A DNA stretch of 64,000 nucleotides from Halopiger xanaduensis SH-6. GTDB lineage: Archaea; Halobacteriota; Halobacteria; Halobacteriales; Natrialbaceae. The translations under genes were made by a program, and so were the position numbers. Positions 14,055 to 38,749 of the stretch are shown piece by piece (position 1 is the first letter of the stretch; each line of letters begins with the position of its first letter). Below the pieces are notes generated by a model that was not told where the DNA came from, did not search any database, and worked only from the letters and a program-made list of their open reading frames with translations. The stretch lies in contig NC_015666.1 of the NCBI RefSeq assembly GCF_000217715.1, positions 2,926,270 to 2,990,269 of the forward strand. Direction: 5' to 3'.

Positions 14055-14177
14055 AAGGTCTTATCTAACTGCTTCTGTGATTGTATAGGTCCTATTGATA
14101 AAAATATCAATCAAATATGGATCTTCTGTAGCGCTAATGAACCACGCGTCGCTCATGATATTGCGATGCGGGAAAAG

Positions 14178-14250
14178 TGGGCCGGCGCAGATTCGAACTG
14201 CGGTTACGGCCACCCGAAGGCCGAAGGATACCAAGCTACCCCACCGGCCC
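14178..14250 (-). tRNA. tRNA-Pro (anticodon CGG)
   Basis: On the minus strand a full cloverleaf can be folded. The acceptor stem GGGCCGG pairs with CCGGCCC. The D arm has A14, G15 and the G18G19 pair. The anticodon stem CGGCC/GGCCG closes the loop TTCGGGT with anticodon CGG. The T arm is CGCAG-TTCGAAT-CTGCG, and A is the discriminator base. No intron is seen and CCA is not encoded. The gene for TrmY, which modifies tRNA position 54, lies just upstream on the same strand. Confidence 0.95.
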
Positions 14251-36356: not shown

Positions 36357-37273
36357 TGGTAGACACAGACACGTTCGTTCCGGACGCAGTCGCAGAGATC
36401 GAAGACGAAATCGGCGACGAAAACGCCGTCATCGCCCTTTCGGGCGGAGTCGACTCCTCGGTCGCCGCCGCGCTGGCCTACGAGGCCATCGGCGACCGGC
36501 TGACACCGGTCTACGTCGACACCGGCCTCATGCGCAAGGGCGAGACCGACCAGATCCGCGAGACCTTCGACTACATGGAGTCGCTGCGGATCGTCGAGGC
36601 CCAGGACCGGTTCCTCGAGGCCTTAGAGGGCGTCACCGACCCCGAGGAGAAGCGAGAGATCATCGGCGAGCAGTTCATCCGCGAGTTCGAGCGCGAGGCC
36701 AAGGACGCCGACGCCGACTACCTCGTGCAGGGGACGATCTACCCCGACCGCATCGAGAGCGAGGGCGGGATCAAGTCCCACCACAACGTCGGCGGGCTCC
36801 CCGACGTCGTCGAGTTCGAGGGGATCGTCGAACCCGTCCGCGACCTCTACAAGGACGAGGTCCGCGAGGTCGCCCGCCACCTCGGCTTAGAGGAGATCGT
36901 CGCCGAGCGGATGCCGTTCCCCGGCCCCGGCCTCGCGGTTCGGGTGATCGGCGAGGTCACCGAGGAGAAACTCGAGGTCGCCCGCGAGGCCAACCACGTC
37001 GTCGAGGAGGAACTCGAGGAGTACGAGCCGTGGCAGGCCCTCGCGGCAGTGATCGGCAAGGCGACGGGCGTCAAGGGCGACAACCGCGTCCACGGCTGGG
37101 TCGTCTCCGTGCGCTCGGTCGAGTCCCGCGACGGGATGACCGCCCGCGCCCAGGAGATCGACTGGGAGACCCTCCAGCGCATCCAGTCCCGGATCACGGG
37201 GACCAACGAAAACGTCGCCCGCGTCGTCTACGACGTGACGCACAAACCGCCCGCGACGATCGAGTACGAATGA
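36356..37273 (+). CDS. guaAB: GMP synthase, ATP-pyrophosphatase subunit
   Basis: A 305-residue subunit that adenylates XMP and adds ammonia to give GMP. The PP-loop is '[14 protein letters not shown]', followed by '[13 protein letters not shown]', '[13 protein letters not shown]', '[13 protein letters not shown]', '[18 protein letters not shown]' and the dimerisation domain ending '[13 protein letters not shown]'. As in most archaea the glutaminase is a separate protein, and its gene is not in this window. The gene is sandwiched by overlaps with pyrG (1 base) and the small gene downstream (4 bases), so three proteins come from one tightly coupled message. Confidence 0.95.
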
Positions 37274-37611
37274 GCGAGGCGTCCAAAACTACGCGAGCGA
37301 TCGTCGCCGGCCCCGACGCCGACGGCATCGGCGAGGCCCTCGAGAATGAGGGCGTCGCGGTCACGCGCCTCGAGGGTGTCATCTCGCGCCCGCAACTCGA
37401 GGAGGCGGGCATCGTCGACGCCGACCTGTACGTCCTGACCGACGTCGGGCAGGCGACGACGATTCCGATCGTCTGCGACCTCACCGACGACATTCGGACG
37501 GTCGTCTACACCGAGGATTCGATCCCGGAGTTCGTCAAGGCGCAACTCGATATCGCGGTCGACCCGAAGTTGCTCGCGCCGGCGATCGTCGCCGAGGAAC
37601 TGCTCGGTTGA
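37270..37611 (+). CDS. DUF7126-type small protein in the pyrG-guaA operon
   Basis: A 113-residue soluble protein with a Rossmann-like alternation ('[29 protein letters not shown]', '[22 protein letters not shown]', '[36 protein letters not shown]'). Members are often labelled 'CTP synthetase' in haloarchaeal genomes, but the protein carries none of the PyrG catalytic motifs. Its start overlaps the guaA stop by four bases. That strict coupling suggests a role in nucleotide amidation or its control, which is inference only. Confidence 0.8.
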
Positions 37612-37739
37612 GCGTCGCACCGTCGGCCGCCGGCCGTTGGCCGTTCCCGACTGCCGTTTTTGCGTGCCCTAATTGTCAGTTGCAGTTAGATGCTAGCCAT
37701 GAACGTTCTCGAGGACGATTTCGGCGGATTAAATCCGAG

Positions 37740-37746
37740 TTAAATT
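37740..37746 (+). promoter_or_regulatory. candidate TATA box of the structured RNA
   Basis: The AT-rich GTTAAATTC centred at 37743 is preceded by a palindromic CGGATTAAATCCG (37725-37737). Either could be a TATA element. From the first, transcription would start near 37766-37770, directly before the first hairpin of the candidate RNA. Confidence 0.4.
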
Positions 37747-37765
37747 CGGGAGAATTCGGCGTAAG

Positions 37766-37996
37766 AAGGGTATACCGTCGCCCCCGTTCAAGTAGGTCCC
37801 ACCCCTACGAACGGGTGGAGGTCGACGGGTCACTTCCACCGTAGGCACCCACGCCTGTTCCCGTGACTTCCAGCAATCCCACCACAGCACCCTTCCCCAC
37901 CATTGCCGTACCGTTCCGACGCGGGCTGCTGCACCGGCCCGGGTCACTCCTTGCGGTTCTGGCATCCCGGGGCGCCACCGCGCCTCGGGCGATTTT
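37766..37996 (+). ncRNA. candidate structured non-coding RNA, about 230 nt, family unknown
   Basis: This gene-free region between convergent genes folds into a chain of helices. I: CCCGTTC (37783-37789) plus GTAGG (37792-37796) pair with CCTAC (37804-37808) plus GAACGGG (37809-37815), leaving a two-base AA bulge; the outer CCGTCG (37775-37780) pairs with CGACGG (37823-37828). II: GTCAC (37829-37833) with GTGAC (37863-37867), enclosing GTAGGC/GCCTGT (37841-37846/37853-37858). III: GCAAT/ATTGC (37873-37877/37902-37906). IV: CGGGC/GCCCG (37922-37926/37937-37941) inside ACCG/CGGT (37910-37913/37954-37957). It ends in a terminator-like hairpin. The G-U pairs in helix II and in the terminator work only on the plus strand, which sets the direction. 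It lacks the RNase P core and SRP helix-8 motifs that I know. Expression is not shown. Confidence 0.5.
37966..37996 (+). terminator. intrinsic-terminator-like hairpin at the end of the candidate RNA
   Basis: CCCGGGGCGC (37966-37975) pairs over ten positions with GCGCCTCGGG (37980-37989), including one G-U pair, around the loop CACC. Four Ts follow at 37993-37996. Read from the other strand the G-U pair would be a C-A mismatch, so the structure belongs to plus-strand RNA. Confidence 0.6.
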
Positions 37997-38032: not shown

Positions 38033-38749
38033 TCAGTCAGCCGATGGCTGGAGCCGCTCGAGGATCGGAATCTCCGCGAGTCGCTCCTCGCTCAACTCGT
38101 CCCACTCGAGAACCGTCGGTTTCGCGTTCTCCGTTGCACCCGTCTCGAGCGTCCGCTCGGGCGTGACGATCAAATCCATCGGCACGTCGTGTGACGAGAG
38201 CGGGACGGCCTCGTCGACGACCTGCAGTTCGTGGACCGTCGTCGCGGTGACCGTCGAATCGTCGACGAGGTCGAACTCGCCGAGGATCGCGAACTCGAGG
38301 TCGCTGTACCCCTCGCCCTTGCCGATCCGCGCACCGTCCTCGGTGACGGCGACGCTGCCGGAGACGATCAGATCGATCGGCTCGACGTCCTCCGGGTGGA
38401 CCGGCACGCCGGCCTCCGAGGAGCCGCCGACCGTCGTCGCGTGATCGATGTCGTCGACGTCGTCGGGATCGAGTCGGAGGAAACACTGTTCGTCGCGAAG
38501 CCGCGGGACGGCCATGTAAACGGTCTTCCCCTGCCGGAGCGCGGCCCGCCGCACGGGCAACTGCGGCGCGTCAGGGTTGGCCTTGACGACGTCGGCCTCC
38601 TGCCAAGCGTCGGTCTCTTGGAGTCGGTCCGCCGCTTCGTCCGCGCCGGCGAAGTTCGGGATGCGTCCGTGGGGCGGGAACGGAAACCGCGCCTCGCCGC
38701 CGTCCTCGAGTTCGTCCCAGATGCGCTCGCGGAGCGCCTGCTTGTCCAT
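38033..38749 (-). CDS. 5-formyltetrahydrofolate cyclo-ligase family protein
   Basis: A 238-residue protein that would convert 5-formyltetrahydrofolate to 5,10-methenyltetrahydrofolate with ATP. Family-like parts are the N-terminal 'MDKQALRERIWDELEDGG', 'LRQGKTVYMAVPRLRDEQCFLRL', 'DLIVSGSVAVTEDGARIGKGEGYSDLEFAIL', which corresponds to the conserved G-x-G-x-G-Y-D nucleotide loop, and 'HELQVVDEAVPLSSHDVPMDLIVTPERTL'. The loop has 'GKGEGYSDLE', the variant common in archaea. It may serve folate-dependent one-carbon metabolism together with the formyl-transferring PurN-PurH protein at 51 kb. Confidence 0.85.
   Translation of the reverse strand: MDKQALRERIWDELEDGGEARFPFPPHGRIPNFAGADEAADRLQETDAWQEADVVKANPDAPQLPVRRAALRQGKTVYMAVPRLRDEQCFLRLDPDDVDDIDHATTVGGSSEAGVPVHPEDVEPIDLIVSGSVAVTEDGARIGKGEGYSDLEFAILGEFDLVDDSTVTATTVHELQVVDEAVPLSSHDVPMDLIVTPERTLETGATENAKPTVLEWDELSEERLAEIPILERLQPSAD

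Follow-up and report, generated by a model that had tools for sequence, protein, structure and literature searches.

The locus and its neighbours

The window (the whole 64,000-nucleotide stretch of Halopiger xanaduensis SH-6 DNA that was analysed) contains, downstream of guaA, an intergenic gap in which no gene had been annotated. The neighbours identified are the GMP synthase C-terminal domain, DUF7126 and 5-formyltetrahydrofolate (5-FTHF) cyclo-ligase. Between the end of DUF7126 (37611) and that of the convergent cyclo-ligase gene (38033) lies a gap of about 420 bases, as described in a preceding reading made from this sequence alone (the sequence-only reading). In nearly all loci that carry the RNA described below, the RNA is adjacent to DUF7126. 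In L019, L022, L025, L028 and genus g10, no cyclo-ligase gene was found beside the RNA. As nearly all loci, also those where no cyclo-ligase gene adjoins, have the RNA downstream of DUF7126, it goes with the guaA side. DUF7126 (PF23443), a domain of unknown function, had a match in all 26 genomes searched for it (L073-L098), which belong to many haloarchaeal families.

Table 1. Features of the guaA-cyclo-ligase intergenic region and its flanking genes (positions in the window)
Feature	Position	Strand	Evidence
DUF7126, upstream neighbour after guaA, constant neighbour of the RNA	37270..37611	+	Pfam PF23443, E 3.8e-46
Putative promoter region: AT-rich blocks, TATA-like TTAAAT (37740-37745), GCGTAAG block at about -10	37728..37765	+	conserved in 29 family loci
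Structured RNA, transcript limits inferred	37766..37996	+	fold z -3.3; 29-sequence alignment; covariance-model matches in 58 of 63 family genomes
5' motif GUU(C/G)AAGU	37786..37793	+	mean identity 0.94
P1 5' strand UGGAGGUCGACGGG	37816..37829	+	99.2% of cells paired, 48 distinct sequences
P1b, small hairpin GGC/GCC in P1 apical loop	37844..37855	+	93.8% of cells paired; two pairs with double changes
P1 3' strand CCCGUGACUUCCA	37860..37872	+	compensatory U-A to C-G in genus g12
C-rich single-stranded linker GCAAYCCCACCACAGCACCCUUCCCCACCAU, proposed interaction site	37873..37903	+	identity and predicted unpairedness
P2 5' strands UGCC and ACCGU	37904..37914	+	RNAalifold with RIBOSUM
P3 hairpin, CUGCACC loop (about 37927-37936)	37918..37945	+	8 of 9 pairs with double changes
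P2 3' strands GCGGU and GGCA	37953..37964	+	RNAalifold with RIBOSUM
P4 terminator hairpin and TTTT	37966..37996	+	10 pairs (37966-37975 with 37980-37989); double changes in 8 of 9 pairs counted
5-FTHF cyclo-ligase, convergent neighbour	38033..38749	-	Pfam PF01812, E 4.2e-26

A conserved fold on the plus strand

The 231 nucleotides of the plus strand fold with -99.1 kcal/mol, compared with -83.5 +/- 4.8 kcal/mol for dinucleotide shuffles (z -3.3), and none of 200 shuffles folded as low; the minus strand of the same region has an ordinary fold (z +0.5). When the whole alignment was folded, the plus strand was 6.8 standard deviations below controls with shuffled columns, and the minus strand 4.2.

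The structure common to 29 sequences consists of the helices P1, P1b, P2, P3 and P4, in which 88.5% of cells are paired (shuffled, 85.5%; slid, at most 44%). There are 53 cells with double changes (shuffled, 16.7; slid, at most 26), which involve 18 pairs, and this covariation is carried mostly by P3 and P4. The weakest helix is P2, with 74-82% of cells paired. There are 144 G-U cells but 35 A-C cells, a bias that identifies the plus strand as the RNA, and all 48 distinct sequences share one G-U wobble in P1. Within most genera P1 hardly varies, but the divergent genera settle this helix: U-A has become C-G in genus g12, and in genus g10 most of P1 has been replaced by GGAGACCACG/CGUGGUCUCC, a helix that is differently written but fully paired.

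In L082 and L084 of genus g10, the sequence downstream of DUF7126 reads GUUCAAGUAG, then GGAGACCACG...CGUGGUCUCC with an inner hairpin, then a C-rich strand without most of the CACC motifs discussed below. Judged on sequence, the RNA of these two loci is a diverged structural homolog, and it is one that the covariance models missed.

The sequence-only reading had proposed a strongly folded RNA with five consecutive helices and with G-U pairs possible on the plus strand only. The strength of the fold and the G-U bias were both recovered, as were its second helix (P1) and its 10-pair hairpin followed by TTTT (P4), whose pairs covary in relatives. Two of its helices did not survive comparison. 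Its first hairpin (CCCGUUC..GAACGGG) and the 6-pair helix closing it (AAGGGU with ACCCUU of the linker) are both present in the minimum-energy fold of the H. xanaduensis sequence, but their strands vary in relatives without compensation; helix I is, as judged from the alignment, species-specific and outside the conserved structure. The P2/P3 arm, in turn, is a further conserved hairpin arm beyond P1 and P4. A pairing of GUUCAAGU with CCAC proposed by RNAalifold was rejected, as it fails in about a third of the sequences.

Conserved unpaired regions

The most invariant unpaired part of the RNA is the C-rich linker of about 30 nucleotides between the two folded halves, the core of which (37877-37901) has an identity of 0.95 and a mean unpaired probability of 0.80 in the 29 sequences. 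The P3 loop CUGCACC has an identity of 0.80 and is unpaired with a probability of 0.72. Among the enriched tetramers the commonest is CACC, with 7.8 occurrences per RNA (dinucleotide shuffles, 4.3); its sites have an unpaired probability of 0.76, compared with 0.44 overall. The linker, the P3 loop and the CACC motifs are in all likelihood interaction sites, to judge from their conservation and predicted openness. Loops have been expanded by CCCACCCACCC or by CACCCCC runs in single species, i.e., the P3 loop in L014 and L015 and the P1 apical loop in L029 and L076. Near the 5' end, even g12 and g10, the genera that diverge most, retain TTnAAG of the motif GUU(C/G)AAGU; a mutual-information scan gave no convincing partner for the C/G switch in this motif.

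Putative promoter and terminator

Across 29 loci, mean upstream identity is 0.75 at 37728-37745 and 0.81 at 37754-37765, compared with 0.48 at 37687-37702. The two conserved blocks, ATTAAATCCGAGTTAAAT (37728-37745) and ATTCGGCGTAAG (37754-37765), would fit a TATA box and a -10 element of haloarchaeal type, and the first of them includes the TATA-like box that had been noticed before the first helix (TTAAAT, at 37740). From promoter spacing, we infer that transcription would start near 37766-37771. At the other end, the fraction of T in the 18 nucleotides after P4 is 0.30 against a background of 0.17 (29 loci), and a run of at least three T follows P4 in 18 of the 29. Thus, comparison among relatives supports the promoter and terminator proposed for this RNA, with conserved upstream blocks, a covarying P4 and a T-rich 3' end.

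The conserved upstream region as a whole, 37703-37765, is made up of AT-containing blocks (TTTCGG, ATTAAATCC, TTAAATTCGG, AATTCGG, TAAG) spaced about 10-12 bases apart. The conservation of this stretch exceeds what a basal promoter needs, and it possibly includes the site of a regulator. A search of the H. xanaduensis genome for a shared promoter motif gave only weak matches of 16-25 nucleotides to part of 37703-37765.

Distribution of the RNA

With a covariance model of the core, 58 of the 295 genomes sampled from the order gave a match, a single one in each. All 58 carriers belong to the Natrialbaceae, of which 63 genomes were sampled (about 92%); the RNA was absent from the 232 genomes of other families at the sensitivity of these models, which miss strongly diverged members such as that of g10. 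With a broader model and laxer filters, the best match in other haloarchaeal families had an E-value of 0.09 (these E-values are rough), lies in a small incomplete genome and is treated as chance. A DNA search gave matches in 32 of 61 related genomes, all of the same family, a few of them short or weak. A pattern scan of 84,980 species genomes gave 52 matches, 48 of them in Natrialbaceae (Natrinema, Natrialba, Natronococcus, Natronorubrum, Haloterrigena, Halopiger, Halobiforma, Halovivax, Halostagnicola, Natrarchaeobius and others); the remaining four are isolated and bacterial, and look like chance. Searches of viral contigs and plasmids found no copy. In genus g7 (L091, L092) and in L089 (G294), DUF7126 is present but the RNA was not found downstream of it, and has apparently been lost or moved. 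As far as searched, the family appears confined to Natrialbaceae, and the genome comparison shows a pattern of vertical retention at one locus.

Known RNA classes and coding potential

No Rfam 15 covariance model matched the window at gathering score, and at E<=10 the region gave only two matches, with chance-level E-values of 7-10. Several identities were considered and rejected. The genome has its archaeal RNase P RNA (RF00373; G000:C3:1092635-1093152, 104 bits) and its archaeal SRP RNA (RF01857; G000:C3:2220417-2220730, 175.8 bits) elsewhere, and ARAGORN, which covers tRNA and tmRNA, places the sole tRNA of the window at 14177-14250. Direct reading of 37766-37996 shows neither a C box (RUGAUGA) nor a D box (CUGA), so a C/D box sRNA was discarded. 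An H/ACA guide RNA was discarded too, there being no 6+6 guide arms for either haloarchaeal 23S pseudouridine region (PMC2584109). In two 5+5 matches (wobble allowed) to the 2586 region, the pairing segments are the P2 3' strand and the sequence following P4, which are not two sides of an internal loop, and the H/ACA matches do not exceed chance. An RNA of a mobile element, plasmid or virus was set aside, with one copy per genome and no viral contig or plasmid among the hosts.

Each of the six frames of the 120-nucleotide core is interrupted by stops in 6-25 of the 30 sequences; the P1 strands lie 30 to 59 nucleotides apart, with all three phases represented. Stops in every frame, together with an apical loop whose length ignores codon phase, indicate that the RNA is non-coding.

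No report of the RNA was found in the literature. A halite metatranscriptome is reported to contain 22 unassigned conserved halobacterial intergenic sRNAs (PMC7002113).

The suspicion of an unannotated plus-strand RNA of a new family, free of known-RNA hallmarks, has thus gained support from the lack of an Rfam match, the single copies in 58 of 63 genomes, the covarying helices and the G-U bias. Comparative evidence confirms that 37766-37996 encodes a real structured plus-strand RNA without an Rfam family. It is a new RNA family of a general kind, the lineage-restricted intergenic sRNA.

Possible function of the RNA

There is about an even chance, in our estimation, that this is a stand-alone non-coding RNA gene of about 230 nucleotides whose product is a trans-acting regulatory sRNA, its C-rich linker pairing with G-rich mRNA. 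The features looked for in a trans-acting intergenic sRNA of the sRNA132 type (own promoter and terminator, non-coding, conserved structure) are found here by sequence comparison only. The RNA would be transcribed from its own TTAAAT promoter; P1 and P2/P3 would be scaffolds that keep the linker and the CUGCACC loop of P3 open, allowing these to pair with G-rich stretches of mRNA (GGUG/GGGUGG), and such pairing would alter the translation or stability of the target mRNAs. An mRNA partner is the first choice because of the precedent of sRNA132 in Haloferax (PMC6560208). In its own genome, a complement to 18 of 21 linker positions occurs only in the gene itself, and shorter seeds are indistinguishable from chance. 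An antisense sRNA whose mRNA targets drift would not usually keep a linker so strictly throughout a family, and such conservation is at least as compatible with a protein or a fixed RNA partner.

A protein partner leads to a possible but distinctly less probable reading, in which the unpaired CACC motifs of the P1 apical loop, linker and P3 loop form a decoy (sponge) that titrates a C-rich-binding protein of translation or RNA decay. The enrichment and openness of CACC and its expanded runs in L014, L015, L029 and L076 are what such a decoy would show, but the sequences are related, so that the enrichment is not independent across rows; moreover, CACC motifs are few in genus g10, and the linker is invariant as a whole, beyond its CACC units. 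The specific form of this reading, an archaeal multi-site decoy with about eight mostly unpaired CACC motifs on a conserved scaffold titrating a C-rich-binding regulator, is doubtful to a slightly greater degree. A fixed RNA partner, e.g., rRNA or tRNA, would make the RNA a housekeeping ribonucleoprotein component or guide (a modification guide, or a lineage-specific ribosome- or RNase-associated RNA). One copy per genome at the same locus, strict conservation and a long invariant single strand would suit this role, which is nevertheless improbable: the linker pairs with 16S or 23S rRNA no better than shuffled linkers do, neither H/ACA arms nor C and D boxes are present, as described above, and the RNA was not found in genus g7.

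The constant position after DUF7126, independent of whether the cyclo-ligase gene follows, would also be expected of a cis element of the pyrG-guaA-DUF7126 operon, a structured 3' UTR or a terminator, with no separate RNA. We regard this as very unlikely, given the promoter-like blocks conserved between operon and RNA (37728-37765), the differing DUF7126-RNA spacing among relatives, and an invariant single strand of 30 nucleotides which a terminator alone would not preserve. Least credible of all is the absence of any functional RNA: DNA sites could by themselves explain strong sequence conservation, but regulatory DNA would not account for the covariation in P1, P3 and P4 and the G-U bias of one strand, nor would an overlooked small protein, which is further opposed by stops and frame-breaking indels in every frame.

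Relation to known systems

The closest parallel to the proposed trans-acting sRNA is sRNA132 of Haloferax volcanii, which is encoded by an intergenic gene with its own promoter and has two stems and a pyrimidine-rich linker (PMC6560208). Compared by description, both are lineage-restricted haloarchaeal intergenic genes with own promoters and conserved neighbours; however, sRNA132 is reported only in Haloferax, has other flanking genes and a 13-nucleotide linker, whereas the Natrialbaceae RNA has about 230 nucleotides, a linker of about 30 nucleotides, an extra hairpin arm and a different host family. Structured haloarchaeal non-coding RNAs with two folded halves and a spacer are also known in the H/ACA sRNA hairpins HP1/HP2, reported in haloarchaea generally (PMC2584109), but the Natrialbaceae RNA is without matching guide arms for the reported 23S targets.

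There are two bacterial analogies. In Gram-positive bacteria, sRNAs such as RsaE have a conserved C-rich strand that is unpaired and can base-pair with ribosome-binding sites rich in G; the Natrialbaceae RNA shares such a strand and differs in structure and lineage. Haloarchaeal mRNAs are mostly leaderless, which makes ribosome-binding sites less obvious targets than for RsaE. In the CsrB/RsmY sponge RNAs of bacteria, repeated GGA in hairpin loops titrates CsrA. The likeness is that a single short motif is repeated many times in loops and unpaired stretches; the Natrialbaceae RNA differs in being archaeal and in having CACC in place of GGA. Were the decoy reading true, CsrB/RsmY would have, in principle, a counterpart in archaea, one that uses a new motif and binds a new partner.

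To our knowledge, conservation beyond the genus together with a covariation-supported structure is known for few archaeal regulatory RNAs. The RNA described here occurs in about 92% of the Natrialbaceae genomes sampled, at one locus and with a precise candidate interaction site. It is thus a ready candidate for Rfam and a good subject for experiment in the genetically tractable Natrinema and Natrialba.
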